The translations under genes and the position numbers were made by a program. The notes beneath the pieces were generated by a model. The model did no database searches. It saw only the letters and a list, made by a program, of their open reading frames with translations, and was not told the origin of the DNA. A stretch of 64,000 bases of DNA from contig CP060770.1 of assembly GCA_023205875.1 (NCBI GenBank), positions 415,966-479,965 on the forward strand, written 5' to 3'. Below are positions 8,004 to 47,593 of this stretch, piece after piece; the stretch's first letter is position 1, and each line of letters opens with the position of its first letter. The DNA comes from Chloropicon primus (taxonomy: Eukaryota; Chlorophyta; Chloropicophyceae; Chloropicales; Chloropicaceae).

Positions 8004-10844
8004 TCAGCTTCTGATCCGAAGTCTTCTAGGGTTCGCGTGAGCAATCGCCCTGTAGATGTATTGGGTGAGGTCAAAGGAATGGGAGTTGTGCCGCGGGACC
8101 GCGTCGTCAAAGTAATGGTACTTTGTGCCCATCACGTCGGTGCCCGCACTCTCCTGGTAGGCCTCGAACCCATACAGGTCGACCCTCTCGCAGGCTTGCA
8201 TGAGGAAGAGGATGGCATAAAACCCGCTCATTGGCTTTTCGCCAGGAAAGGTTCCCAAGTTCAGTTGCGTGAAACGCTTCTTGAAGTCCCCGTACCGCCG
8301 GTAAGCCCAAACCACAAACAATGGATTGTAAGGCAGAACAGCTTTGTCGGGCCACTGCGACCGTAACGTCAAAAAGTTGTTCTTCCACCACTTCTCCTTG
8401 TTCAAGTTCGAGTCCTTGGTTTTCTGCAAGATACCCGCAATGTCGAACATCTCAAAGAGGACCAAAGTGGTATCCTTCTTCCTCCACCTCCACCTGTTTC
8501 CCCCAGGGGCCAGACCCTGCTTCCCCTCTCCACCCGAGTCAATCGTCTCCACCAAAGCTTTCACCCAAGCACTGTTCAGGCTCTCGTGCGTTGTCCGGAC
8601 ACCCGTGTAGACCTCAAAGCCAGCCGTGGGAGCTTGATTGAACCGATACACCATGGTGTGGTTGTCGATCTCCTCCCCGTGGGGGTTGTGCAGCAACGAA
8701 CCCGAGTTGCCGATGACCGCGCACGAATCCACCTTGGCCGACTTTGGGGACAAGTTCAAGTTCCTGAACAAGGCATTGTCGTTCTCGGGAAGCATATTGT
8801 ACATGTGCCGGTTCATCTCATAGTAATCGCCCTGAAAGGTGCGGTTTCTTGTCGTCCCTTGGGGCAATTCGATGTAACCCGTGGTCCCCGAGCCACCGTT
8901 GCCGTCGCCCTTGTCGCTATTCTCCTCGTCCCAAATGATGGTCTCCCTCCCCATCAGCAAGCTTCCGTTGTAGTTCAGGTTAATGCCTTTCATGACCTGT
9001 GAGGCCAAGGAAGGGGAGCCGAGCTCAAGCATGTCCCTCTCGCAAAACCGGCCCCCCCAAGTTTTCTCGCACCGGCAGCTGTTGCTCACCACGTCATCGC
9101 GCATTGTCCGAGTGTGCTCTGTGCACTGGAAGGGCGAGGAAGACTGAGAGGCACTAAGCCTGCACATCACTTCGTCGCACTTGCCATCATTCCCCCTCCT
9201 TTGCCCTGACAAGGCAGGGTGCTTCACTGGCTTTCCATCGTCCCTCACCCTCACCGGCGTCGTGGTGTTCACCAAATGGAGTGCGCCCAAAGCCATCAAG
9301 TAGCTCTTCTCCACCTCATGCTCCACCTTCTCTCCCGCAGTGAGCTCGGAATCGTCGAAGAAAGTTTGCCTGCACTTGGAGTGAAGCCCGCACCGAGGGA
9401 AGACGCCATAGATATCCACGTTCTCGCAAACTTGCAAGGCCATGGAGACGGCGTGGATCAAGCTACCAAGCTTCTCCGCCTTCACTCTCATGGCTTTCAC
9501 GTCAGTGAGCTTGCTCAGGACCAACCGTCTCGAGAACTCGTCGAACTGCTTCATGATGTGCAAGTCAAAAGCCCTGCTGAGCATCACGATGTTGGCCTCC
9601 GGATACAAGTACTTGAGCTGGACGTAATTGGACTGGCTTTGCGAAGCCCAGAGGACGACCGCCGCGGTATCAAGCCACCACCTTGCCACGTGTGGCACCC
9701 CCGAGCTCGCCATGTTGAGCAGTGCATTCGACCACTTGGCGTCCAAAAGCTGGTAAGTCACCTTCTTGCCCACATCGGCGGAATACTTTGAGCCGCTCGG
9801 AGCGTTATCAATCCTGAACACGGCGCTGTGCTTGTCAATCGTGGAGCCCAGCTTGCTTCCCAGCAAGGACCCAGACTTTCCAACGACAGCACACGTGGCG
9901 TGACGTGTCTGCCAGTCCTCCTGCGGGAGAACTCGGGCCAGCTCGGGCAAAATGGCATGACTCGAAAGACTTATGTCAGGCCCAGCCTCGTTCCCGCTGT
10001 CCTCGTCCCCGTCGCCTGCCGCCCGCCTCGCGGCTCCCATGGTGACCTCCAGGTTGAACGGCGGAATCAGCTGCCCGGTGTGCATCTGTATCCCGTAAGC
10101 TTGGTGGTTCGGGACAACCTCAAGCGCCGGCTCCGCGTTCACCAGCCCCTTGAGAAGATCCTCCGTGTACGAGAACACGACCCCGCTGTTGGTCTGTACT
10201 ATCGGTGCGACCTCCGCCTCTGATGCTGCTCCCTTCTCGCCATCCCCTGAGCAGATGCATGGCTGTACGGTGACTTCTAAGCCTGTCCCGCTTCCCACGG
10301 GGAGGAGGCACTTGAGTATGCCATCACTGACCCAGCGTGTCTCCCCGCAAGGGACGTCGCCGATCAATACATGCAGCTTCCTTCCTATCTGACGCTTGGA
10401 GTTGGTCAGAGCGCTAAACCCTCTCCCCCTAATGATTGCTGCTATCCCTCCTGCCCTTGGAGCAAACCTTGGCTCGATGCTGTGGACTGTGATCACCGGA
10501 AGATCAATGTTACGATACTCCTGTGTGGCATCAAACTCCACCTCCTTCCCTTCAAGGTCTCCATCATACCACAAGTCATCTGTCATTGAAGCTGCACTGG
10601 ATGCTTCCCTTGGATCCTCCTGGCCATCAGAGACCTTGCTGGACACGATGTCGATGTTCTCATCGTGCTGGCTTCCTCCCTGCCTGCCTTCCTCCACTTG
10701 CACGAGGTGCAGGAGTTCTGCCTTCCTATGACTGAGGTCGTGGAGGACACTGTGAGGCACACGAGATATCACTGTCAAAGTGTACACAAACAGAAGGACA
10801 GAAAGGACACCTTTGGGTCTCAGAATCTGCTGAAGCATTCTCAT
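8004..10844 (-). CDS. GT29 sialyltransferase-like protein with two GT29 domains, IPT and EGF-like modules
   Basis: A predicted type II membrane protein of 946 residues, starting MRMLQQILRP at the ATG at 10844, with a signal anchor at about 10-30. An IPT/TIG-like domain (about 116-228: ITVHSIEPRFAPRAGG...IIRGRGFS) follows. GT29 domain 1 covers about 317-527. It has an L-motif-like CAVVGKSGSLL...IDKHSAVFRIDNAP and an S-motif-like VCENVDIYGV with a later HEVEKSY. A Cys-rich EGF-like segment is at about 553-603 (SNSCRCEKTWGGRFC). GT29 domain 2 covers about 706-940 (SCAVIGNSGSLL...IDNHTMVYRFNQAP, then CERVDLYGFEAY and KYHYFDD). A Golgi location is inferred from topology. GT29-like proteins in plants and algae often lack proven sialyl transfer, so the substrate is unknown. 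Confidence 0.85.
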   Translation of the reverse strand: MRMLQQILRPKGVLSVLLFVYTLTVISRVPHSVLHDLSHRKAELLHLVQVEEGRQGGSQHDENIDIVSSKVSDGQEDPREASSAASMTDDLWYDGDLEGKEVEFDATQEYRNIDLPVITVHSIEPRFAPRAGGIAAIIRGRGFSALTNSKRQIGRKLHVLIGDVPCGETRWVSDGILKCLLPVGSGTGLEVTVQPCICSGDGEKGAASEAEVAPIVQTNSGVVFSYTEDLLKGLVNAEPALEVVPNHQAYGIQMHTGQLIPPFNLEVTMGAARRAAGDGDEDSGNEAGPDISLSSHAILPELARVLPQEDWQTRHATCAVVGKSGSLLGSKLGSTIDKHSAVFRIDNAPSGSKYSADVGKKVTYQLLDAKWSNALLNMASSGVPHVARWWLDTAAVVLWASQSQSNYVQLKYLYPEANIVMLSRAFDLHIMKQFDEFSRRLVLSKLTDVKAMRVKAEKLGSLIHAVSMALQVCENVDIYGVFPRCGLHSKCRQTFFDDSELTAGEKVEHEVEKSYLMALGALHLVNTTTPVRVRDDGKPVKHPALSGQRRGNDGKCDEVMCRLSASQSSSPFQCTEHTRTMRDDVVSNSCRCEKTWGGRFCERDMLELGSPSLASQVMKGINLNYNGSLLMGRETIIWDEENSDKGDGNGGSGTTGYIELPQGTTRNRTFQGDYYEMNRHMYNMLPENDNALFRNLNLSPKSAKVDSCAVIGNSGSLLHNPHGEEIDNHTMVYRFNQAPTAGFEVYTGVRTTHESLNSAWVKALVETIDSGGEGKQGLAPGGNRWRWRKKDTTLVLFEMFDIAGILQKTKDSNLNKEKWWKNNFLTLRSQWPDKAVLPYNPLFVVWAYRRYGDFKKRFTQLNLGTFPGEKPMSGFYAILFLMQACERVDLYGFEAYQESAGTDVMGTKYHYFDDAVPRHNSHSFDLTQYIYRAIAHANPRRLRIRS

Positions 10845-11464
10845 CACTTCACTTCACTTCACTTCACTCAACCCCTTCCCTTCCCCTTGTCCCTCAATCC
10901 ATCCAACAGGAAGGACAGGAGCAAAACCAGGTGCTTGGGTTTGGGCAAAAACTCAAAGAGTTGTCCCAAAGATTGAATCTTTGTGGAGTCTTGTGAGCAT
11001 AGGTCGGTCAATTCTGGTCGGGTTGTGCGAATCAACCAAGGTGGTGCCGGCCTTGGCACACAAGTGTGCGATGCCTCATGACTTTCTGGACCTGACCCTT
11101 CCACTCTTGTTGAAGCTATGCTTTTGCTTTTTGCTTGTTCTGGAAGAGAAGAGAAGAGAAAGAGAAGTTTTCCTCCTCCTGCCTGGGATGGAGGATGGAG
11201 GATGGAGGAAGGGAAGCCTAATGTCGGGTGCAGGTGGTGATGCATTGCCTTGCCCCGTGATCCACCTCTGTCCGTCCCTTTGCCCTTGGTCTAGGAATCA
11301 CGAGCGAGCTTCCCCTCAATCACACGTCACGTGGAGCCTTACGGAAGCGGGGACGGGGGAGGGCGAGCGCGTGCGGTGCCGGTAGGTGGGGACAGGACCA
11401 AGCCAAGGAGAAGAACTGTGTTACAATGCAGATCTCAAATGTAAAAAAATTTCTACGACAACGC
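10845..11464. other. Intergenic gap upstream of the GT29-like gene
   Basis: No gene is supported. A repeated CACTT run at about 10846-10867 lies directly 5' of the GT29-like start. A palindromic CACGTG (G-box core) sits at 11328-11333. TTACA at 11421-11425 is a minus-strand TGTAA, 40 bp after the stop of the CAS-like gene. The rest has no clear structure. Confidence 0.5.
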
Positions 11465-14086: not shown

Positions 14087-16150
14087 CTACTTGACAACGG
14101 GCTTGCCGTTGATGGAGGACTTCTCCAGGTTGATCTGGACCTCCACCACGCTCATCTTCTTCGTCTTTGGATCGCCGCGTAGTCCCGTGATGTGCCTGAC
14201 CTTGCGAGGCATGCCTTGGGCCGCCCCGACCTTGGTCTGCGTGTCCGAGTCCCTGGACAGGTACACCTGGGTCTCGACCTCCCTCCTGAAGTGGCTCTTG
14301 TCGGTCTGCCCGCTGTGGGTCTTCTTCTGCCTTAGGTTGGCCATCTGCAGGCCCCGTTTCCGCAAGTCCCACTCGTTCCAGCAGTAGTTTGGATCCACAA
14401 ACTTCTCCACGTAATGCGTGGGCGTCTGCGTGCCGTACTCCTTGCTCTTCTCGCTCGCGTTGACCAACTGGCACACAAAGTCCACAGTCGCCCTGTCCGG
14501 GCTCAGCTTGAGCAGACTAATCAGCTGAGGCAGGCGGGTGACGCACTCCAGGGTCACCTGAGCCGTGTACCTCCCTGGGGTCTTGAGGAACTTGGTCCTG
14601 TACTTCTTCGAGGCGAAGGCGAACCACCTGTCCTGGGGGCTCTTCGTGCCGGCTGAGGCCCCGTCCCCCTCCGCGCCAGGGCTCGCCGCCTTGGCGCTCG
14701 TGCTCGAGTAGCTTGGCTCCAGGATGCAAACGCCACATCTGGCCAGGCCCCTCCTCAGGATCTTGTCCTCCACGATGCTCACCGGGCAGTAACCGCCGTA
14801 CTCGAAAACGTCGTACTCCCTCTCGTCGGCTGCCTCCTTTCCTTCCTCCTGGGGAGCCTTGGTCAGAGGCGAGGGCCAGGCCTGCATCACGTCCTTGACA
14901 ACCTCGTCCTTCTCAATGGACTCCAAGTCGTTGTCACCCTCCTCGTCCAGGTCCAGGAGGTCGTGGTCCTCCATACCTCCGGAGGCCTCGGCTTGCCTGA
15001 GCCTCCTGATGAAGGGGGGCTGCATGAACACCGCCAAGTCGCTCTCGGTCACTCCGCTGTCGTCCGAAAGCAACGTCCTCATGAAGGAGGACTCCTTGAT
15101 CGCTTCCTCCCTGAAGCCCAAGTCCAGGCCTTCGAAGTAGAGCCTGCCAATCGAGTCGAACAGGGGATACACCGTGTCCTTGGAGACGGCGTGCTTCCCC
15201 TCCACCATCGTCTTGAGCTGAGCCAGAAGCATGCTGATCCTGTCGCTGTTCTCCGCGGAATCCACGCCGAGCGAGTTCCACTCCAGGCCCTGCTCCAGGC
15301 AGATGCACATGCTTTGCTCCGCGAGGGAAACCAAGTCGGAGACCTTCTCCTTCTCCGAGGACTCCACTTTCTCGAGCTTCTTCCACTTCCTTCTCGCGTT
15401 CGCGGCAATCAGGCTCAGGTGCTTGAGCAGCACCACCACGTGCCAGGCTCCCTTCTGGGAAGCCAGCAGGGTCTTCTTCGAAGGGGAAAGGCTCCTCAGG
15501 CTATCCATGAACGTAGCGCTCTTGCCAGTGAACGAGTTGAAGCACAAGATGCCAACAACAAGCCTGCAAAGCTCTCCCAGCTGCTTCACCTTGTTGTCGT
15601 AAATGTCCAAGCAGAATGATCTCACGCTGTAGAGCGGGAACACGGACTCCAAAGCGGACCTCACCTCGTTGCGGATCTTTTGCTCCAGCTCGCTCTGCCT
15701 CTCCTCCCTCTCGATCCTGTCCTTGTAACTGAACTCCAAGCCGCGCTCGGACCAGTTGTACAAGTCCGCTGCCTCGATGGTGAAGTCCACCATGAGGTCG
15801 TACACTTTGGCGCACACTGCATTGGACGCCAAGGTATCTTGAGCATTCAGCTTGGTCTTGGTGATCTCCTCCTGCAACGTGAATATCTTCTCCACCCTCC
15901 ACTTCCTCTTCCCAGCGAGCAAGTCCCTACGTTCCCTCTTCTTCTCCCAATAAGCAATCTGCAGGGCCACAGTCTCCAGCATGCAGTCAGACTCTGATGG
16001 AGCTGCTGCTTCTTGTCCGCCCTCCGCGTTAGGTGCGCACCCCAACGCCGCTTGAATACGCTGGCACACCGCCTGGGACATCTCGTCCAGGCTCGACGGA
16101 CCTGAACCAAACACCAACACCAACACCAACACCAACACCAACACCAACCA

Positions 16151-16181
<31 letters not shown>

Positions 16182-16628
16182 GGGTCAGCAATCAATGGAA
16201 ATGGATCAATGCATGCATGCACCAATGAATGCATGAAGCTGGCTTGCCCCCGTTGCTGCTTCAAGAGCAAGGCCCAACCCCGAGAGAGGGAAGCCCAAGT
16301 GGCCGCGTACCACCAGGACAGGCACAAGTGTGTGTGTGTGTAGGAGGGAGGGAGGAGGGTGAATGATTGAGAGGAGCTTACCTGGAAGACCGTGTGCTCT
16401 CTTGAGGTGGAGAGTAATCGTAAGAAAGGCACAGAATGCTTCACTGGGTGACAGGAATATGTCTTGGAGCATTGTGGGTTCCAAGAGGCAAGCAGAGCTA
16501 CCAAACTTTCCACTGGAGGAAGTCGTCTCCTTGGACTTGGACTTTTGCTTGTCCCTGGCCTCATCCTGCATCTCACGGCTCCGCCTCACGGCCTCGCTCA
16601 CCGTGTAAAGGATCTCGTCCGTGTCCAT
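14087..16628 (-). CDS. CFAP206: CFAP206 cilia/flagella-associated protein, two exons
   Basis: Known homologues (FAP206) dock radial spoke 2 and dynein c on the axoneme. Exons are 16628-16382 and 16101-14087, giving 753 residues. The donor is CCAG|GTAAGC and the acceptor TTCAG|GTCCG, and joining yields LPGPSSLDEMSQ. Family features include N-terminal helices, the central FSYKDRIEREERQ region, and the C-terminal part with FVDPNYCWNEWDLRKRGLQM followed by KKTHSGQTDKSHFRREVETQ. The acidic insert around LLDLDEEGDNDLESIEKDE is probably a loop and helps explain why it is longer than the ~620-residue animal protein. The 280-bp intron contains (AACACC)n and (GA)n tracts. A gene starting at 16576 in the second frame would read through intron sequence. 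Confidence 0.88.
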
Positions 16629-37399: not shown

Positions 37400-40300
37400 T
37401 CACCACTTCAAGCCACTGAACATCTTCTTCTTTGCCTCCTCCTGCTGCTGTTTCTCCATCTCTTCCCTCATCTTCATTTCCCTGGCCTCTCTCTCTTTCT
37501 GTGCGCTTTTCATTTCCTCGGTCATGCTCGTGAAAACAACGGGCTGCTGCTGCTGCTGCTGCTGTTGCCCATAAACACCCAGAGGATACCCCTGAGGGTA
37601 AGTAGGTGGTGGAGGGCCACCGTAGTAAGGGCTTTGGTACGCATAAGGCGTACCGCCGTAACCTGCTGCTGAGCCTGGCATCATAACAGGCGTTGGTGGC
37701 ATGCTAGCCCCTGGCGTCATCACCATAGGGGTCATGGTGGGTGCTGGCGTGACCGCACCTCCCCCTCCTGGCATCGAGGGTGCTGGAGAGGGTTGAGGAG
37801 GCATGGCATTATAACTTCCCCAACCTCCTCCACTTGCATCGGGAGTTGGCCCTTGGGCAACAGCTGGTGCTACTGTCTGTGATGCACCGCCAAAGTTGCC
37901 CCAATCACTCCCACTGGTGTCACTAGCAGACACTGCGGGTTGTGGTGGAGCCATCTGAGGCGTTGGAACAACAGATGGTGGAGCAGCGACTGCTGGTGGT
38001 GGTGGCGTCATTGCTGCTGCACCGGCACCGCCAAAGTTGCCCCAATCACTCCCACTGGTGTCACTAGCAGACACTGCGGGTTGTGGTGGAGCCATCTGAG
38101 GCGTTGGAACAACAGATGGTGGAGCAGCGACTGCTGGTGGTGGTGGCGTCATTGCTGCTGCACCGGCACCGCCAAAGTTGCCCCAATCACTCCCACTGGT
38201 GTCACTAGCAGACACTGCGGGTTGTGGTGGAGCCATCTGAGGCGTTGGAACAACAGATGGTGGAGCAGCGACTGCTGATGGTGGTGGCGTCATTGCTGCT
38301 GCACCGGCACCGCCAAAGTTGCCCCAATCACTCCCACTGGTGTCACTAGCAGACACTGCGGGTTGTGGTGGAGCCATCTGAGGCGTTGGAACAACAGATG
38401 GTGGAGCAGCGACTGCTGGTGGTGGTGGCGTCATTGCTGCTGCACCGGCACCGCCAAAGTTGCCCCAATCACTCCCACTGGTGTCACTAGCAGACACTGC
38501 GGGTTGTGGTGGAGCCATCTGAGGCGTTGGAACAACAGATGGTGGAGCAGCGACTGCTGGTGGTGGTGGCGTCATTGCTGCTGCACCGGCACCGCCAAAG
38601 TTGCCCCAATCACTCCCACTGGTGTCACTAGCAGACACTGCGGGTTGTGGTGGAGCCATCTGAGGCGTTGGAACAACAGATGGTGGAGCAGCAACTGCTG
38701 GTGGTGGTGGCGTGATTGCTGCTGCACCGGCACCGCCAAAGTTGCCCCAATCACTCCCACTGGTGTCACTAGCAGACACTGCGGGTTGTGGTGGAGCCAT
38801 CTGAGGCGTTGGAACAACAGATGGTGGAGCAGCGACTGCTGGTGGTGGTGGCGTCATTGCTGCTGCACCGGCACCGCCAAAGTTGCCCCAATCACTGCCG
38901 CTCCCGTCATTTGTGGGCGCTGAGAGTTGTGGTGGAGCCATCTGAGGTGCTGGCACAACAGGTGGTACCACCACACTCTGAGGCGCTTCATCAAAGTTGC
39001 CCCAATCGTCTCCACTCACGTCATTTGAGGGCGCTGCGGGTTGTGGTGGCGCAATAGGAGTTGGATTTGGATCAGGAGCGCCTGAGATCATCGCATCAAA
39101 AGCACCCCACTTGCTATCATTACTCCTGACCTCAGGAATATCGGACTTTTCATCATGTTTCTCAGTATCGTCTGATTCTGGCGCTCCAACAGATGGAGCA
39201 TCACCAAAGTTGCCCCAATCGTCTCCGGCTTCGCCATTGCTGGCAGTAACAGCAGGCGGTGGAGCCACTTGAGGTGTTGGCACATCACTCTGAGATGCAT
39301 CACCAAAGTTGCCCCAATCGTCTCCGGCTTCGTCATTGCTGGCAGTAACAGCAGGCGGTGGAGCCACTTGAGGTGTTGGCGCAACAGGTGGTGCATCACC
39401 AAAGTTTCCCCAATCGTCGTCTCCACCTTCGTCATTGCTGGCAGTAACAGCAGGCGGTGGAGCCACTTGAGGTGTTGGCGCAACTGGTGGCGCAACAGGA
39501 GTTGGATTTGGATCAGGAGCGCCTGAGATCATCGCATCAAAAGCACCCCACTTGCTATCATTACTCCTGACCTCAGGAATATCGGACTTTTCATCATGTT
39601 TCTCAGTATCGTCTGATTCTGGCGCTCCAACAGATGGAGCATCACCAAAGTTGCCCCAATCGTCTCTGGCTTCGCCATTGCTGGCAGTAACAGCAGGCGG
39701 TGGAGCCACTTGAGGTGTTGGCACATCACTCTGAGATGCATCACCAAAGTTGCCCCAATCGTCTCCGGCTTCGTCATTGTTGGCAGCAACAGCGGGCGGT
39801 GGAGCCACTTGAGGTGTTGGCGCAACAGGTGGTGCATCACCAAAGTTTCCCCAATCGTCGTCTCCACCTTCGTCATTGTTGGCAGCAACAGCGGGCGGTG
39901 GAGCCACTTGAGGTGTTGGCATATCACTCTGAGATGCATCACCAAAGTTGCCCCAATCGTCTCCGGCTTCGCCATTGCTGGCAGTAACAGCAGGCGGTGG
40001 AGCCACTTGAGGTGTTGGCACATCACTCTGAGATGCATCACCAAAGTTGCCCCAATCGTCTCCGGCTTCGCCATTGCTGGCAGTAACAGCAGGCGGTGGA
40101 GCCACTTGAGGTGTTGACACATCGCTCTGAGATGCATCACCAAAGTTTCCCCAATCGTCTCCACCTTCGTCATTGTCGCCAGAAGACACTGCAGGTTGTG
40201 GTGGACCCACTCTTTCTTCAAAGTTGCCCCAATCATCATTAGCAGTAGCATTACCTGTACTTTCAGCGGGGTGGTCATTCTCAAAATTGCCAAATCCAAA

Positions 40301-43300
40301 GTCAACTTCATTGGATGGGTTGTCAGCGGAGCCCTGGGCCGTAGTTGTAGCATCAAAGTTACCCAAGTCACTCTCAGATTCACCTGCAAATAGGTCTTGT
40401 GAAGTCATGCCAGAGTCATGAGAGTTGTCCCCGCTAGCTTGTGTTGGGTCATTGTGCTCTTTGAAACTTGGCTGTGGAGAATACATCAAGGAGAAAAGGT
40501 CATCTGTGCCACAGAAAGCGAAAGGATCGTGACCAGCATCATGACCAGGACTTTGACTGTTGGTGCTCTCAATAGAATGAGACCTCGTGAGCCCTGTCTT
40601 CGTGTTATCAGGATCGTCATTCACGGCAGGCTTTGACTCTCCCTGGGACACCATGTTTTCCAATTCACCAAAGTCAAGGTCAACCTCATATGCCTTTTCC
40701 TCTATGCCAAGCTGAGCTTTCAAGGCGATATCTACGTCAGACAAGATATCTGAATAAGCATTACCCTCCGCTTTCAGCATGCCCTCGACATCAACCTCAA
40801 CAAAGTGCACAAATCCATTTGTGGAATCCTTCATTCCCTCTAAAGTCTTCCACTCCACCACATTCTTCTTTCCAAAGACCTTGCTAAACTCGTTAAATCC
40901 TGCCATGTCCATAAAAGTGCCATTACTTCTCACGCCAGCGGTGCATTGGCCAACAACATCCTTCTCCCCAGAAGAAGTGCCATTATTTCCAGCAGCACCA
41001 AAAGCCCCGAAGTCATCGGTCTCCTCGGAAGCGGGAGCATCAAAGGCACCGAAGTCGTCCACTTCCTCTACGTCCCCAGACGTGTTTCGTTCAGCGGAAC
41101 CAGTGTCAAAGGCACCGAAGTCATCGGTCTCCTCGGAAGCAGCGGGAGCACCCTCACCCGCGGGAGCATCAAAGGCACCGAAGTCATCGGTCTCCTCGGT
41201 CGGAGCGGGAGCATCATCGAGCGTGCCATCAGCACCAGCATCAAAGGCACCAAAGTCATCGGTCTCCTCGGAAGCAGCGGGAGCACCCTCACCCGCGGGA
41301 GCATCAAAGGCACCGAAGTCATCGGTCTCCTCGGTCGGAGCGGGAGCATCATCGAGCGTGCCACCAGCACCAGCATCAAAGGCACCAAAGTCATCGGTCT
41401 CCTCGGAAGCAGCGGGAGCACCCTCACCCGCGGGAGCATCAAAGGCACCGAAGTCATCGGTCTCCTCGGTCGGAGCGGGAGCATCATCGAGCGTGCCATC
41501 AGCACCAGCATCAAAGGCACCAAAGTCATCGGTCTCCTCGGAAGCAGCGAGAGCACCCTCACCCGCGGGAGCATCAAAGGCACCGAAGTCGTCCACTTCC
41601 TCTACGTCCCCAGACGTGTTTCGTTCAGCGGAACCAGTGTCAAAGGCACCGAAGTCATCGGTCTCCTCAGTCGGAGCGGGAGCATCATCGAGCGTGCCAT
41701 CAGCACCAGCATCAAAGGCACCAAAGTCATCGGTCTCCTCGGAAGCAGCGGGAGCACCCTCACCCGCGGGAGCATCAAAGGCACCAAAGTCATCGGTCTC
41801 CTCGGTCGGAGCGGGAGCATCATCGAGCGTGCCATCAGCACCAGCATCAAAGGCACCAAAGTCATCGGTCTCCTCGGAAGCAGCGGGAGCACCCTCACCC
41901 GCGGGAGCATCAAAGGCACCGAAGTCATCGGTCTCCTCGGTCGGAGCGGGAGCATCATCGAGCGTGCCATCAGCACCAGCATCAAAGGCACCAAAGTCAT
42001 CGGTCTCCTCGGAAGCAGCGGGAGCACCCTCACCCGCGGGAGCATCAAAGGCACCGAAGTCATCGGTCTCCTCAGTCGGAGCGGGAGCATCATCGAGCGT
42101 GCCATCAGCACCAGCATCAAAGGCACCAAAGTCATCGGTCTCCTCGGAAGCGGGAGCACCCTCACCCGCGGGAGCATCAAAGGCACCGAAGTCATCGGTC
42201 TCCTCGGTCGGAGCGGGAGCATCATCGAGCGTGCCATCAGCACCAGCATCAAAGGCACCAAAGTCATCGGTCTCCTCGGAAGCGGGAGCACCCTCACCCG
42301 CGGGAGCATCAAAGGCACCGAAGTCGTCCACTTCCTCTACGTCCCCAGACGTGTTTCGTTCAGCGGAACCAGTGTCAAAGGCACCGAAGTCATCGGTCTC
42401 CTCAGTCGGAGCGGGAGCATCATCGAGCGTGCCATCAGCACCAGCATCAAAGGCACCAAAGTCATCGGTCTCCTCGGAAGCAGCGGGAGCACCCTCACCC
42501 GCGGGAGCATCAAAGGCACCGAAGTCGTCCACTTCCTCTACGTCCCCAGACGTGTTTCGTTCAGCGGAACCAGTGTCAAAGGCACCGAAGTCATCGGTCT
42601 CCTCAGTCGGAGCGGGAGCATCATCGAGCGTGCCATCAGCACCAACATCAAAGGCACCAAAGTCCTCGGTCTCCTCGGAAGCAGCGGGAGCACCCTCACC
42701 CGCGGGAGCATCAAAGGCACCGAAGTCATCGGTCTCCTCGGTCGGAGCGGGAGCATCATCGAGCGTGCCATCAGCACCAGCATCAAAGGCACCAAAGTCA
42801 TCGGTCTCCTCGGAAGCAGCGGGAGCACCCTCACCCGCGGGAGCATCAAAGGCACCGAAGTCATCGGTCTCCTCGGTCGGAGCGGGAGCATCATCGAGCG
42901 TGCCATCAGCACCAGCATCAAAGGCACCAAAGTCATCGGTCTCCTCGGAAGCAGCGGGAGCACCCTCACCCGCGGGAGCATCAAAGGCACCGAAGTCATC
43001 GGTCTCCTCGGTCGGAGCGGGAGCATCATCGAGCGTGCCATCAGCACCAGCATCAAAGGCACCAAAGTCATCGGTCTCCTCGGAAGCGGGAGCACCCTCA
43101 CCCGCGGGAGCATCAAAGGCACCGAAGTCGTCCACTTCCTCTACGTCCCCAGACGTGTTTCGTTCAGCGGAACCAGTGTCAAAGGCACCGAAGTCATCGG
43201 TCTCCTCAGTCGGAGCGGGAGCATCATCGAGCGTGCCATCAGCACCAGCATCAAAGGCACCAAAGTCATCGGTCTCCTCGGAAGCAGCGGGAGCACCCTC

Positions 43301-44635
43301 ACCCGCGGGAGCATCAAAGGCACCGAAGTCGTCCACTTCCTCTACGTCCCCAGACGTGTTTCGTTCAGCGGAACCAGCATCAAAGGCACCGAAGTCATCG
43401 GTCTCCTCAATCGGAGCGGGAGCATCATCGAGCGTGCCATCAGCACCAGCATCAAAGGCACCAAAGTCATCGGTCTCCTCGGAAGCAGCGGGAGCACCCT
43501 CACCCGCGGGAGCATCAAAGGCACCGAAGTCATCGGTCTCCTCGGTCGGAGCGGGAGCATCATCGAGCGTGCCATCAGCACCAGCATCAAAGGCACCAAA
43601 GTCATCGGTCTCCTCGGAAGCAGCGGGAGCACCCTCACCCGCGGGAGCATCAAAGGCACCGAAGTCGTCCACTTCCTCTACGTCCCCAGACGTGTTTCGT
43701 TCAGCGGAACCAGCATCAAAGGCACCGAAGTCATCGGTCTCCTCGGTCGGAGCGGGAGCATCATCGAGCGTGCCATCAGCACCAGCATCAAAGGCACCAA
43801 AGTCATCGGTCTCCTCGGAAGCGGGAGCACCCTCACCCGCGGGAGCATCAAAGGCACCGAAGTCGTCCACTTCCTCTACGTCCCCAGACGTGTTTCGTTC
43901 AGCGGAACCAGTGTCAAAGGCACCGAAGTCATCGGTCTCCTCAGTCGGAGCGGGAGCATCATCGAGCGTGCCATCAGCACCAGCATCAAAGGCACCAAAG
44001 TCATCGGTCTCCTCGGAAGCAGCGGGAGCACCCTCACCCGCGGGAGCATCAAAGGCACCGAAGTCATCGGTCTCCTCGGTCGGAGCGGGAGCATCATCGA
44101 GCGTGCCATCAGCACCAGCATCAAAGGCACCAAAGTCATCGGTCTCCTCGGAAGCGGGAGCACCCTCACCCGCGGGAGCATCAAAGGCACCGAAGTCGTC
44201 CACTTCCTCTACGTCCCCAGACGTGTTTCGTTCAGCGGAACCAGTGTCAAAGGCACCGAAGTCATCGGTCTCCTCAATAGGAGCGGGAGCATCATCGAGC
44301 GTGCCATCAGCACCAACATCAAAGGCACCGAAGTCCTCGGTCTCCTCGGAAGCAGCGGGAGCACCCTCACCCGCGGGAGCATCAAAGGCACCAAAGTCAT
44401 CGGTCTCCTCGGTCGGAGCGGGAGCATCTTCCGCGGGGGCATCAACAGCGCCAGCATCAAAGGCACCGAAGTCGTCTCCTTCCTCTACATCCCCAGACGT
44501 GTCCGCTTCGGCAGGTGCTGGAGCATCACCAGTACCTGCGTCGAAGGCAACGAAGAAATCAGCAGAGCCGTCCTTGATCCCTTCGGTACCCGATTCTGCT
44601 GCTGAAGTGTTGTCGAAATCTCCAAAGTCCTCCAT
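37400..44635 (-). CDS. Giant motif-scaffold protein with about 53 [DE]DFGAF and 19 DWGNF repeats
   Basis: An intronless 2411-residue protein starting MEDFGDFDNTS. Residues about 50-1200 are modular repeats built from three linkers between [DE]DFGAF motifs: DAPAGEGAPAASEET, DAGADGTLDDAPAPTEET and DTGSAERNTSGDVEEV. I count 53 copies. A unique region follows (FNEFSKVFGKKNVVEWKTLE ... VDVEGMLKAEGNAYSDILSD) and may be the only folded part. Next come DPFAFCGTDDLFSLMYS and about 19 DWGNF motifs in 31- and 47-residue repeats. A Pro/Gly/Tyr/Gln tail ends with a charged helix (KEREAREMKMREEMEK). DFGxF, DWGxF, DPF and DLF resemble known short ligands of AP-1/GGA and AP-2 ear domains, so a clathrin-adaptor scaffold is the best guess. 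I know no named homologue. Confidence 0.8.
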   Translation of the reverse strand: MEDFGDFDNTSAAESGTEGIKDGSADFFVAFDAGTGDAPAPAEADTSGDVEEGDDFGAFDAGAVDAPAEDAPAPTEETDDFGAFDAPAGEGAPAASEETEDFGAFDVGADGTLDDAPAPIEETDDFGAFDTGSAERNTSGDVEEVDDFGAFDAPAGEGAPASEETDDFGAFDAGADGTLDDAPAPTEETDDFGAFDAPAGEGAPAASEETDDFGAFDAGADGTLDDAPAPTEETDDFGAFDTGSAERNTSGDVEEVDDFGAFDAPAGEGAPASEETDDFGAFDAGADGTLDDAPAPTEETDDFGAFDAGSAERNTSGDVEEVDDFGAFDAPAGEGAPAASEETDDFGAFDAGADGTLDDAPAPTEETDDFGAFDAPAGEGAPAASEETDDFGAFDAGADGTLDDAPAPIEETDDFGAFDAGSAERNTSGDVEEVDDFGAFDAPAGEGAPAASEETDDFGAFDAGADGTLDDAPAPTEETDDFGAFDTGSAERNTSGDVEEVDDFGAFDAPAGEGAPASEETDDFGAFDAGADGTLDDAPAPTEETDDFGAFDAPAGEGAPAASEETDDFGAFDAGADGTLDDAPAPTEETDDFGAFDAPAGEGAPAASEETDDFGAFDAGADGTLDDAPAPTEETDDFGAFDAPAGEGAPAASEETEDFGAFDVGADGTLDDAPAPTEETDDFGAFDTGSAERNTSGDVEEVDDFGAFDAPAGEGAPAASEETDDFGAFDAGADGTLDDAPAPTEETDDFGAFDTGSAERNTSGDVEEVDDFGAFDAPAGEGAPASEETDDFGAFDAGADGTLDDAPAPTEETDDFGAFDAPAGEGAPASEETDDFGAFDAGADGTLDDAPAPTEETDDFGAFDAPAGEGAPAASEETDDFGAFDAGADGTLDDAPAPTEETDDFGAFDAPAGEGAPAASEETDDFGAFDAGADGTLDDAPAPTEETDDFGAFDAPAGEGAPAASEETDDFGAFDAGADGTLDDAPAPTEETDDFGAFDTGSAERNTSGDVEEVDDFGAFDAPAGEGALAASEETDDFGAFDAGADGTLDDAPAPTEETDDFGAFDAPAGEGAPAASEETDDFGAFDAGAGGTLDDAPAPTEETDDFGAFDAPAGEGAPAASEETDDFGAFDAGADGTLDDAPAPTEETDDFGAFDAPAGEGAPAASEETDDFGAFDTGSAERNTSGDVEEVDDFGAFDAPASEETDDFGAFGAAGNNGTSSGEKDVVGQCTAGVRSNGTFMDMAGFNEFSKVFGKKNVVEWKTLEGMKDSTNGFVHFVEVDVEGMLKAEGNAYSDILSDVDIALKAQLGIEEKAYEVDLDFGELENMVSQGESKPAVNDDPDNTKTGLTRSHSIESTNSQSPGHDAGHDPFAFCGTDDLFSLMYSPQPSFKEHNDPTQASGDNSHDSGMTSQDLFAGESESDLGNFDATTTAQGSADNPSNEVDFGFGNFENDHPAESTGNATANDDWGNFEERVGPPQPAVSSGDNDEGGDDWGNFGDASQSDVSTPQVAPPPAVTASNGEAGDDWGNFGDASQSDVPTPQVAPPPAVTASNGEAGDDWGNFGDASQSDMPTPQVAPPPAVAANNDEGGDDDWGNFGDAPPVAPTPQVAPPPAVAANNDEAGDDWGNFGDASQSDVPTPQVAPPPAVTASNGEARDDWGNFGDAPSVGAPESDDTEKHDEKSDIPEVRSNDSKWGAFDAMISGAPDPNPTPVAPPVAPTPQVAPPPAVTASNDEGGDDDWGNFGDAPPVAPTPQVAPPPAVTASNDEAGDDWGNFGDASQSDVPTPQVAPPPAVTASNGEAGDDWGNFGDAPSVGAPESDDTEKHDEKSDIPEVRSNDSKWGAFDAMISGAPDPNPTPIAPPQPAAPSNDVSGDDWGNFDEAPQSVVVPPVVPAPQMAPPQLSAPTNDGSGSDWGNFGGAGAAAMTPPPPAVAAPPSVVPTPQMAPPQPAVSASDTSGSDWGNFGGAGAAAITPPPPAVAAPPSVVPTPQMAPPQPAVSASDTSGSDWGNFGGAGAAAMTPPPPAVAAPPSVVPTPQMAPPQPAVSASDTSGSDWGNFGGAGAAAMTPPPPAVAAPPSVVPTPQMAPPQPAVSASDTSGSDWGNFGGAGAAAMTPPPSAVAAPPSVVPTPQMAPPQPAVSASDTSGSDWGNFGGAGAAAMTPPPPAVAAPPSVVPTPQMAPPQPAVSASDTSGSDWGNFGGAGAAAMTPPPPAVAAPPSVVPTPQMAPPQPAVSASDTSGSDWGNFGGASQTVAPAVAQGPTPDASGGGWGSYNAMPPQPSPAPSMPGGGGAVTPAPTMTPMVMTPGASMPPTPVMMPGSAAGYGGTPYAYQSPYYGGPPPPTYPQGYPLGVYGQQQQQQQQPVVFTSMTEEMKSAQKEREAREMKMREEMEKQQQEEAKKKMFSGLKW
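37888..38905 (-). repeat. 141-bp coding tandem repeat, seven units
   Basis: Each unit encodes 47 residues containing GSDWGNFGGAGAAAMTPPPP and TPQMAPPQPAVSASDTS. Units are almost identical at DNA level. Rare variants are A-I-T for A-M-T and P-P-S for P-P-P, which points to recent amplification or gene conversion. Confidence 0.9.
39150..40240 (-). repeat. Coding repeats with DWGNF and PTPQVAPPPAV
   Basis: Units of about 31-33 residues (DDWGNFGDASQSDVPTPQVA, then PPPAVTASNGEAG) repeat. A larger segment containing APSVGAPESDDTEKHDEKSD and KWGAFDAMISGAPDPNPTP is itself duplicated (about 39050-39230 and 39480-39690). Confidence 0.8.
40990..44480 (-). repeat. 135-bp and related coding repeats encoding [DE]DFGAF modules
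   Basis: The basic unit is 45 residues (two DFGAF motifs with APAGEGAPAASEE and AGADGTLDDAPAPTEE linkers). It is interrupted at irregular spacing by a third linker with GSAERNTSGDVEEV. Unit order is not strictly periodic, so both amplification and shuffling have occurred. Unit lengths are multiples of three, and the two antisense frames stay open across the block. Confidence 0.9.
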
Positions 44636-45496
44636 CCTTGCTGCAGTCCACGAAAGGTCAATGATTCACTCTCCCAGGGAACGGAACGGAACGGAACGGG
44701 ATGGGAATGGGAATGGGAATGGGAACCCCTCTCGTTTGCTTGCTTGTTTGGGGTTTGGGAAAAAAAACTGTGCCCTTGTCCCGTGTCCCGTGTCCCGTGA
44801 TTCAATTCAACCAACCGCTTCGTACGCTACTCTCCTCTCACACCAATCGATTATTGGGTCACCATCCTCGCCGTGCTCATCGCCAGAGCCAGACTGCGTA
44901 CGAGAGGGATGCACAAAACAAGGCGGAGGGAAAGAATTAGAAACAACCATGGATGGTCTCCGTATCCTGTCGAACGAAACACGAGGTCATTCCCAACAAG
45001 GTTGGGCTCATTCGAAAGAGAAAGAGACGAAGTATCGATCTGTGGAGCTTTCTCTCGTCCTCCGACGCTCACTCCCTCCCTCACGCGCCCCTCCACTCAC
45101 CTTGGTCGATCGATCGTGGATGAGGCGCTCTTCTCCCTCCTTTTCTGATCAGTGGTCCTCAATATGTGTAACGTAACACTCATTCATGATCTATTGATAA
45201 TCTGAGAATCTACTAAACTATAAACTGAGGTAGGATGGAGATGGAGGGAGGGGAAGAGGGCAAGGGGGGAAGGGAGAGCAGTATCAAAGGAAGGACTTGA
45301 TTGATCTCTCCATTGCTTTCGATGGATCAAGAAATAAATGGATCGGCCGCTTGCTTACGCACGCTGCGGTCTCGTGTCGGCGTCGATGGAATGATAAGAG
45401 AATGATAGGAAACTGAGGTGCAGATGAGGATATTGATAACTGGAGATCATATGCTTTTGCTTTTGCTTTGGAAAACCCGTTCATTTGTTTTTACTT
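44636..45496. other. Upstream region of the giant gene
   Basis: It holds a (GGAAC)n/(GGGAAT)n run at about 44680-44725 and a TTCGAAAGAG-type element at 45005-45030. On the minus strand there is a good donor-like CCAAG|GTGAGT near 45100, so a 5'-UTR intron is possible. The right part up to the multicopper oxidase stop has no gene. Confidence 0.45.
45005..45030 (+). promoter_or_regulatory. TTCGAAAGAG-type element upstream of the giant gene
   Basis: Reads GGCTCATTCGAAAGAGAAAG then AGACGA, 370 bp upstream of the minus-strand start at 44635. It has the same orientation relative to the gene as the other copies. Confidence 0.5.
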
Positions 45497-47593
45497 TTAT
45501 ATTAGATTCTTGCAGTCCTTGAATTCTGGAGGGATGGGATTGAGCTCGTCGAGAACGTCCAAACCAGTCGCAAGCACCAGGGCCATCCCGTCCTCGACGT
45601 GAAGGCTGAGGTGACAGTGCACGAACCACAGCCCTGGGTTATCTGCCTTGATGCGAACCCAAACGTAGCCTCCGGCGGGCACATTGATCGAGTCCTTTAA
45701 CGGCGAGCGAGAAGTGTCGATTCCTTCGAGCGCTGGACCTTCAGGCTTCGACCATTTGGCTTGATTGCACATTGGCCTATGGTCCCACGTCTCGTTCTTG
45801 AGCTTCGTTCCTGCCTCGCTGCAGTCAATGTCTGGGTTCATGATCGGTTCTGAATCGTCGCCCTGTGGGCCCCTGTTGGTGAAAAACTGGCCCAGGTTGT
45901 CGACGAAACCGCTCTTGAGGACATGGTACTGGTAGCCATGCATGTGCACGGGGTGAGCCCAACCAGCCCCGCTGCCCACGTTCATGAAGACGAAATCAGC
46001 AACGTCGTTATGCTTGATGTTGACGATCAGGGGACAGTCACAAGTTTCTCCCGCTCCGCACGTCTCGTTGCAGGTGCTGAGCCACCCCATTCTCTCCGAC
46101 GAGACAAGAGGGGCATAGCCCGGAAGGCTGAGGCTCTGGCCGTTGACAGATCCATCCGAAGACGTGATGCCTGGGAAGGCAAAGTTCAGGAAGATTGGCT
46201 CACCAGCAGGAGGAGGAGGAGGAGGCCGAACGCCTTCTGCCGCAATCAGATCGTTGCCGAAGAGGAGGCAGTCCGTGTACCGGCTGTCAGGGAACCTCGG
46301 GAATGGGCAGTTGGCCACCTTGCACCGATTATCAGCAGAGCACGGGCGCTTGAAGTCGCTTGGCGCGCTTGTCGGCTCCGATCGGCTGGAATCATCGTAT
46401 TTGAGAACCGCTAGCCCCTGCGGTTTGACAAAATCCTCCACCTCTCCCACCACTAGGGAGGCCGCTCTCAACCAGTAGGCACCAGGGGGCTTGTCAAACG
46501 TCACCTCAAAGTCGTAGCGCTCTCCCGGCCACATGATGATCGACTCGACCTCCGTCGGCTGCAGTTCTCCGCCGTCCGAGGCCACCAGCACGAGGGGGTG
46601 ATCGTCGATGGAAAGCCGGAAAGGAAAGCTCATGCCAGCATTGATGACTCGGATCCGGTGCGTCTCTCCCTCCTTCCCCTCCACAACAGTAAGCGGGGCC
46701 TGATTAAACTCCTGCTTGTCCTGGTCCCAGTGCCTTCCCTTGCCGTTCACCAGGAAGGTCAAGTTCGTTTGGTAGGGGTCGAGGAAGTCTCCTGACATCG
46801 TCCTCACCTTTTCGGGATTCAAGTTCGGCATGAGGGGGGACTGCCCCATCAGCATGAACTGGAACGTCTCGCGCGCCGTGTTGAGAGGATCAAAGTCGTT
46901 GATGACAAGAACGTGTCGATCGATGACCGCCTCCTCCTCCTCCTCCTCCGTAGGCCTCGGGCGGACGATGAGCGCTCCGAAGAGGCCATCGTTTCTCTGC
47001 ATGCCGCTGTGGCTGTGCCACCAGTGCGTTCCAACGGGTTGGGCCGTGAACTTGTAACGCATCGTCACCCCGGGCATGATAGGGCACTGGGTGAGGTCCT
47101 GGACGCCGTCCATCCAAGGCGTCGCGCGCTGATCCTGGCCGTGCCAATGGATGGTGACCCCCTCCACGAGCTGGTCATTGATGACGTCTACCACAATCTC
47201 CTGACCCTCGTAGACCTCGATGGCGGGGCCGGGGAGCATCTGCTTCAACTCCTGTGGCCCGGCGACGACGACGAGACGCCCAGGGTGGAGCCCATCCGCT
47301 GTAATCACGGTCTCGGGGTGCTCCAACGCTTCCCCGTCCTTTCCCAGCGCCAGGCTTCCATTGAAGGACTCGGCGTAACATCCAGGGGACCCACACGTGT
47401 TGTTGAACTTGGCCGCATGCAGCGTCAGGCGTTGGCCAACATGAAACGTGTAGGAGCAACTGGCGTTCTGCGGAGGACACACACGTTGGTCGACGACGTT
47501 TGCGTTTGCGTTTGCCTCCACCGCCATGCCAACAAAGAGAAGTAGAAGAAGGACGACCGGCCACCAGAATCCCATCCTCATGTTGGTTTCCAT
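45497..47593 (-). CDS. Secreted multicopper oxidase (laccase/ferroxidase-like)
   Basis: A 698-residue protein, METNMRMGFWWPVVLLLLLF, with a signal peptide ending near EANANA. It has three cupredoxin domains. All four copper-binding segments are intact: HWHGQ near residue 149, WWHSHSG near 194, HPVHMHGYQY near 549, and VHCHLSLHVEDGM near 659, which has the type 1 Cys and an axial Met candidate. It oxidises a phenol or metal and reduces oxygen to water. The substrate cannot be told from sequence. In green algae, relatives include ferroxidases of iron uptake, but no iron permease is nearby. There is one pair of Cys-rich inserts (NETCGAGETCDCP). The promoter has a good TATA box. Confidence 0.9.
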   Translation of the reverse strand: METNMRMGFWWPVVLLLLLFVGMAVEANANANVVDQRVCPPQNASCSYTFHVGQRLTLHAAKFNNTCGSPGCYAESFNGSLALGKDGEALEHPETVITADGLHPGRLVVVAGPQELKQMLPGPAIEVYEGQEIVVDVINDQLVEGVTIHWHGQDQRATPWMDGVQDLTQCPIMPGVTMRYKFTAQPVGTHWWHSHSGMQRNDGLFGALIVRPRPTEEEEEEAVIDRHVLVINDFDPLNTARETFQFMLMGQSPLMPNLNPEKVRTMSGDFLDPYQTNLTFLVNGKGRHWDQDKQEFNQAPLTVVEGKEGETHRIRVINAGMSFPFRLSIDDHPLVLVASDGGELQPTEVESIIMWPGERYDFEVTFDKPPGAYWLRAASLVVGEVEDFVKPQGLAVLKYDDSSRSEPTSAPSDFKRPCSADNRCKVANCPFPRFPDSRYTDCLLFGNDLIAAEGVRPPPPPPAGEPIFLNFAFPGITSSDGSVNGQSLSLPGYAPLVSSERMGWLSTCNETCGAGETCDCPLIVNIKHNDVADFVFMNVGSGAGWAHPVHMHGYQYHVLKSGFVDNLGQFFTNRGPQGDDSEPIMNPDIDCSEAGTKLKNETWDHRPMCNQAKWSKPEGPALEGIDTSRSPLKDSINVPAGGYVWVRIKADNPGLWFVHCHLSLHVEDGMALVLATGLDVLDELNPIPPEFKDCKNLI

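Follow-up and report, generated by a model that had tools for sequence, protein, structure and literature searches.

We found that the Chloropicon primus gene at 37400-44635 (-) of the window, by which we mean the whole 64-kb stretch of DNA that was analyzed, encodes a protein with 77 short aromatic motifs of mostly two types, and we consider this protein to be probably a cytosolic, mostly disordered and extremely multivalent accessory scaffold acting in the clathrin-adaptor (AP) pathway. This assignment was made by comparing sequences, and it is better supported for the functional class, a ligand of coat adaptors, than for the exact partner, given that the strict gamma-ear pattern is unmatched, that WxxF motifs are also used by COPI and that the reading as an FG-repeat protein is weak. 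Judging by homology, the gene is conserved, with its family seen in C. primus and in one other source.

The first-pass annotation had described an intronless frame of 2411 residues, and we indeed found a single open frame of 2411 codons, which starts from an ATG in the context caaggATGG and has no internal stop; intronless here refers to an uninterrupted frame, as read from genomic DNA alone. The window is the final 64 kb of contig 17, which terminates in TTAGG-rich sequence, in an assembly of 17,584,162 bases and 20 contigs. The RCC138 assembly is reported to have been made from Nanopore reads with Illumina polishing (PMC12301720), and such reads could therefore span the repeat array of the scaffold gene. 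When DNA encoding DFGAF[DE] was searched for across the 17.6-Mb genome, in a search that skips very common words, all 52 matches fell inside this gene. Two long antisense frames cross the F-type array, at 40779-45176 (+, 1465 aa) and 40946-44605 (+, 1219 aa); they are open because the repeat unit presumably has no stop in those frames, and they are most likely not genes. A multicopper oxidase gene (45497-47593, -) lies immediately upstream of the scaffold on the same strand. Elsewhere in the window, Pfam recognized a sialyltransferase (GT29) with a TIG domain at 8004-10847 (-), and 59 sialyltransferase genes have been reported for C. primus (PMC6731263). A FAP206-like flagellar domain was found by Pfam at 14087-16576 (-); vegetative cells of C. 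primus have no flagella, and flagellar genes are reported as kept.

The main features of the scaffold are the following, with P0001 denoting the homolog described below:

44615..44632, minus strand: isolated N-terminal motif EDFGDF, residues 2-7
41000..44476, minus strand: F-type array with 53 [DE]DFGAF, residues 54-1212
40388..40999, minus strand: unique region, residues 1213-1416, with 45% identity to P0001 over the aligned part
40469..40528, minus strand: DPFAFCGTDDLFSLMYSPQP, residues 1370-1389, matching P0001 at all 20 positions
37811..40387, minus strand: W-type part with Pro/Ala-rich linkers, residues 1417-2275
39187..40175, minus strand: two runs (39187-39494 and 39639-40175) of DDWGNF units, each unit 33 residues (99 bp) long (Tandem Repeats Finder)
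39044-39920, minus strand: 441-bp duplication, which also copies SKWGAFDAMISGAPDPNP (Tandem Repeats Finder)
37884..38966, minus strand: 47-residue (141-bp) SDWGNF units, 7.7 copies with 97% matches (Tandem Repeats Finder)
37403..37519, minus strand: C-terminal charged stretch, residues 2373-2411, ending KKKMFSGLKW

Recounting the motifs gave exactly 53 [DE]DFGAF and 19 DWGNF, the numbers that had been put forward as approximate, and one DPF as annotated; DLF, which had also been called single, occurs twice. Further motifs are the N-terminal EDFGDF and, in the W-type part next to the 19 DWGNF, two KWGAF, one GWGSY and one F-type GFGNF. The broader pattern [FW][GAD]x[FY] matches 77 times and accounts for 153 of the protein's 174 F and W residues. 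These matches comprise 55 F-type motifs between residues 4 and 1448, all but one of which precede residue 1213, spaced mostly 20-25 residues apart but with 52 residues ahead of the second motif and 14 ahead of the last one of the array, and 22 W-type motifs at residues 1469-2272, spaced by 26-47 residues. An acidic residue occupies position -1 in 19 of the 21 W-type motifs of WxxF form.

Both arrays are built from tandem duplications, with Tandem Repeats Finder reporting periods of 72-336 bp (68-97% matches) in the F-type array and of 99, 141 and 441 bp (89-98% matches) in the W-type part. Within C. primus, 16 units of 24 residues that are identical as protein show a single variable DNA column and 15 units of 21 residues show two, which suggests that the copies were recently homogenized, and this variation is too small for a test of selection within this array. 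For the same reason of tandem duplication, the excess of [FW]GxF over shuffled versions of the protein (76 observed against a mean of 1.4 and a maximum of 6 in 500 shuffles) does not count as independent evidence. Stronger evidence comes from the fact that the motif is carried on differing linkers within the scaffold, in units of 21-24, 33 and 47 residues, and from its excess in the homolog.

A search with the unique region returned a sole match among 1271 candidates, the 1169-residue P0001 from ENA, whose alignment covers 73% of the query. A second, 305-residue sequence from a profile search in which 7994 candidates were scored (P0002) has one mismatch to P0001 in the first 267 compared positions and then diverges. 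No full-length relative (0.55-1.75 times the length of the scaffold) was found at E 0.1 among 1029 candidates, and pattern searches gave no match in viral contigs and, in genome contigs, 86 matches of which none was a relative. P0001 has the same order of parts as the scaffold, namely F-type array, core, W-type motifs and charged C-terminus, and ends in KRKMFNDLNW where the scaffold ends in KKKMFSGLKW; SKWGAFDAM[IV]SGAPDP occurs twice in each protein. It carries 15 F-type and 15 W-type motifs, against 55 and 22 in C. primus, on linkers that are more varied, and motifs account for 60 of its 77 F and W residues. Shuffling P0001 leaves a mean of 0.4 and a maximum of 3 [FW]GxF (500 shuffles), where the protein itself has 28. 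The 4.3 bits at the F, W and F of the motifs were rejected as evidence of conservation, since the search pattern itself dictates these positions; conservation was judged solely at positions outside it. At such positions, the F-type motifs of P0001 have D or E at -1 in 13 of 15 and at -2 in 12 of 15, G, never A, at +1 in all 15 and A at +2 in 11; the W-type motifs have an acid at -1 in 8 of 15 and at -2 in 10, and G at +1 in 13. Linker positions mostly reach 1.3-2.4 bits, partly through small-sample bias. In P0001, a single F-type motif is also found in the core and another among the W-type motifs, so the division into F and W halves is not absolute.

The block shared unchanged with P0001, DPFAFCGTDDLFSLMYSPQP, contains the DPF of the scaffold, one of its two DLF and LFSLM, a near-match to the clathrin box that lacks the final D/E; a full clathrin box was found in neither the scaffold nor P0001. 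The first-pass annotation had proposed profile searches of the unique parts and had regarded an unrelated family or a secretion signal as speaking against an adaptor role; the former did not appear in such searches, nor the latter by eye. Profile searches of Pfam, NCBIfam and PDB with the whole protein, the unique region and the C-terminus found no usable relative, with FKBP-like_N (E 0.25) as the lone sub-threshold Pfam match for the whole scaffold. The N-terminus, MEDFGDFDNTSAAESGTEG, is acidic and, by eye, has no hydrophobic stretch. AlphaFold2 returned two models of the unique region with mean pLDDT values of 36.7 and 39.2, a low confidence owing to which they were left out of fold searches; the core and the first W units look disordered in the model. 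We also considered a pyrenoid (Rubisco) linker like EPYC1, and set it aside because Chloropicon is described as having no pyrenoid (PMC12301720) and because the acidic N-terminus does not, by eye, resemble the start of a transit peptide.

To place the motifs, we surveyed the coat accessory proteins of C. primus, taking open frames as stand-ins for gene models. The C. primus NECAP ends in EDDQWGDFEG; in the same frame (L057 positions 1225-2172, -), GDWVADFDSFEAA stands ahead of the terminal WGDF and is perhaps a second tryptophan motif. In animal NECAPs, a C-terminal WxxF is reported to bind the AP-2 alpha ear (PMC3794858, PMC5785209), and some NECAPs are described as having no such C-terminal motif (PMC5785209). 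All three ENTH proteins carry motifs, respectively EVWADF with GFADF, GEWASF with GWATF, and NPFAAFDE. A search for ArfGAPs gave 8 places, which were taken as 6 genes, and [FW][GA]xF occurs in 3 of these, in one case as GGFGGF. One (L078) has NEWADF and three DPF, and another (L081, whose frame is tied to the domain by position and strand) has WVAF twice, GWATF and two DPF; we read these two as SMAP-like. The third, ArfGAP1-like gene (L082/83) has WGDW, GGFGGF and a terminal DDSWGAW. The remaining three (L079, L080, L084/85) have no [FW][GA]xF on the coding strand, L080 having WDDF. The pattern was also absent from all three ANTH frames, from two gamma, one alpha and one beta adaptin frame, and from one HEATR5 frame. 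As background, 24 other window ORFs (at least 250 residues, longest-first tiling, not all of which need be genes) contain two [FW][GA]xF in 13,843 residues, neither with an acid within the three preceding positions. In the NECAP and ENTH frames together there are 6 in 1735 residues where 0.25 would be expected (Poisson tail 3e-7, rising to 2e-4 if the background is set at its upper bound); this test was post hoc. The scaffold motifs belong to a short aromatic class that the adaptor ligands of C. primus itself use. Related patterns were matched elsewhere in the genome at C2, twice at C3, and as EDFGPF (C1), EDFGRF (C20), EEWGSF (C11) and DDWAKF (C3), all of which were out of frame or in proteins that by eye are unlike coats. 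One match at C7 had no matching frame of at least 60 residues, and DFGDF also matched in a 764-residue frame (C1) and a 108-residue frame (C5).

Candidate receptors are encoded as well. A PF02883 search identified four ears in C. primus, of which two best match human gamma1-ear structures (1gyu and 2a7b; E 2.6e-18 and 2.2e-16), while we read the other two (L003 and L004) as probable alpha and beta ears. At the sites where human gamma1-ear reads AVPK and MRIK, both algal gamma ears have AVPK and MRLK, and the first arginine of the human LRMRIK is replaced by M in both; the AVPK and LRMRIK residues line the peptide site. The two gamma-adaptin genes (L001 and L002) each include an ear, in a very compact genome, and might divide the two motif types between them, and a HEATR5/Laa1 homolog is encoded too. 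The strict gamma-ear expression attributed to ELM matches 0 of the 53 DFGAF copies, because these carry T (43 copies), V (9) or G (1) at position -3; with that position left free, 54 matches are found in the scaffold. The core [FWY]G[PDE][FWYLM], which is said to go back to Mattera, is matched twice in the scaffold and three times in P0001. The earlier description of the motifs as adaptor-ear-like is supported by the motif class in NECAP, ENTH and ArfGAP proteins and by the presence of gamma ears, but not by the strict gamma-ear pattern. WxxF is reported both as an AP-2 alpha-ear motif (PMC3794858) and as a motif for COPI delta-COP, the yeast protein Gcs1 using a C-terminal WxxF (PMC6737914). 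With the strict pattern unmatched and WxxF shared with COPI, the candidate partners are AP-1, AP-2 or COPI.

Under the accessory-scaffold reading, each F-type motif would dock weakly on the gamma-adaptin ear of AP-1, while the W-type motifs together with DPF and DLF would dock on the AP-2 alpha ear or on the same gamma ears. A single molecule, as a very acidic and flexible chain, could in this way gather many adaptors, raise their local concentration at the trans-Golgi network, endosomal or plasma membrane, and act by avidity in coat assembly, while the conserved core and the C-terminal charged stretch would anchor it to another partner, possibly clathrin or HEATR5. The shared motif class, the encoded ears and HEATR5 homolog, the motif positions kept in P0001 and the identical DPFAFCGTDDLFSLMYSPQP speak for this reading. 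Against it count the unmatched gamma-ear patterns, the incomplete clathrin box, the M in both gamma ears, the motif-free ANTH frames and mixed ArfGAPs, the use of WxxF by COPI, the small number of relatives found and, in P0001, the low share of acids at -1 of the W-type motifs and the F-type motif lying among them. By analogy with AtEH1/AtEH2 (PMC7615741), condensation driven by the scaffold is plausible. We regard as doubtful a more specific version, in which the protein would be a lineage-specific coat organizer whose two motif alphabets are private to it. Its F-type half would then serve AP-1 gamma and its W-type half either AP-2 alpha or COPI delta-COP; one 77-site molecule would in this way condense or bridge two coats within a very small cell, with its copy number tuned by minisatellite expansion.

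Several other explanations were weighed against the accessory-scaffold reading. The protein might serve COPI instead, its W-type motifs docking on the mu-homology domain of delta-COP and its F-type motifs on the gamma-COP ear, so as to bring coatomer together in clusters or to link COPI with AP coats at the Golgi. The precedent of Gcs1, the tryptophan motifs among acidic residues that ELM is reported to describe (PMC6737914, PMC7145657) and the terminal DDSWGAW of the ArfGAP1-like protein all point that way. That protein, however, uses WGDW and WGAW, whereas WxxF, accompanied by DPF in some cases, is the form found in the NECAP, ENTH and SMAP-like proteins, and the conserved DPF of the scaffold favors AP-2, which makes a COPI scaffold unlikely in our view. 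We hold it to be very unlikely that the FG dipeptide is the functional unit, as it is in FG-repeat proteins, be it at the nuclear pore or in some other compartment that phase-separates. Of the 76 FG dipeptides, 57 precede residue 1416 and 19 follow it, 17 of the 22 W-type motifs having G next to them on the C-terminal side; the W-type part is low in charge (FCR 0.14), and the disorder of the core and first W units in the model would suit such a protein. Typical FG nucleoporin domains, however, have low-charge linkers, unlike the first 1212 residues with their net charge of -368 (FCR 0.32 for the F-type part); GLFG is absent from the scaffold, FxFG occurs once, G comes after only 10 of the 15 W-type motifs in P0001, and the NECAP and ENTH proteins have FG-free motifs (such as WADF and WASF) that fit [FW]xxF rather than FG.

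The likeness to coat ligands could also be a matter of convergence, with the scaffold acting like an acidic-aromatic activation domain or binding some other non-coat partner, and the acidic and aromatic composition, the unmatched strict gamma-ear patterns and the absence of a known fold from the unique region are in keeping with this. We nevertheless think it quite improbable, since Pfam found no DNA-binding domain in the scaffold, the motif class is common to the NECAP, ENTH and ArfGAP proteins of the same genome, and the DPF/DLF block is conserved. Compatible with the accessory-scaffold reading, but giving the copy number another meaning, is a minisatellite expansion from an ancestor with fewer functional motifs, in which most of the 53 and 19 copies would be neutral products of tandem duplication. 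The near-identity of the array copies in DNA and the lower motif number of P0001 speak for such a history; against it, P0001 retains 30 motifs despite its more varied linkers and the frame stays open over 7.2 kb, and we see it as a possibility worth keeping in mind, at well under even odds.

If the accessory-scaffold reading is right, about 77 motifs of mostly two types, together with a 30-motif relative, would form a ready-made series for studying how the number of motifs governs the clustering of adaptors and the nucleation of coats. Little-studied green lineages might then also contain coat scaffolds that escape domain annotation. In line with the first-pass annotation, which knew of no described protein of this kind, we found no description of it in the open-access papers searched: judging by title, no paper retrieved with DFGAF, DWGNF, DDFGDF or DFGDF concerned coat proteins, none of the matches listed for adaptor condensates concerned the scaffold, and the word clathrin does not occur in two Chloropicon genome papers.

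Among known systems, aftiphilin and gamma-synergin carry one or a few motifs, compared with 77 in the scaffold. They belong to an AP-1 accessory complex with p200/HEATR5 and are reported as accessory proteins with gamma-ear-type motifs (PMC9988951, PMC10690479), and a homolog of the HEATR5 of this system is, as noted, also encoded in C. primus. By domain, the scaffold is neither of the two: PF15045, which we take to be the aftiphilin clathrin-binding domain, was not found by Pfam-A in the whole scaffold, the unique region, the C-terminus or P0001, and Pfam found in the scaffold no EH domain of the kind that gamma-synergin and Eps15/Ede1 have. Nor did Pfam find a domain that would place it in the NECAP, epsin or ArfGAP families. 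The C. primus NECAP, ending in DDQWGDFEG, shares the W-G-x-F form with the DWGNF of the scaffold, but bears its terminal WGDF behind a PHear domain (PF07933), which the scaffold does not have. The epsins and SMAP-type ArfGAPs of C. primus hold W[AG]xF, FADF or WVAF in long low-complexity tails, several with DPF and DLF in addition; unlike the scaffold, they have an ENTH or ArfGAP domain and one to three motifs each. Ear ligands have usually been studied with one to a few motifs. In its working mode, as far as its sequence lets us compare, the scaffold may resemble Eps15/Ede1 and the plant AtEH1/AtEH2, which are described as multivalent, disordered scaffolds driving the condensation of endocytic proteins (PMC7615741, PMC9064294). 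We therefore read it as working like a multivalent ear ligand, which is a known kind of protein, and see what is new in its extreme valence and its two motif types.
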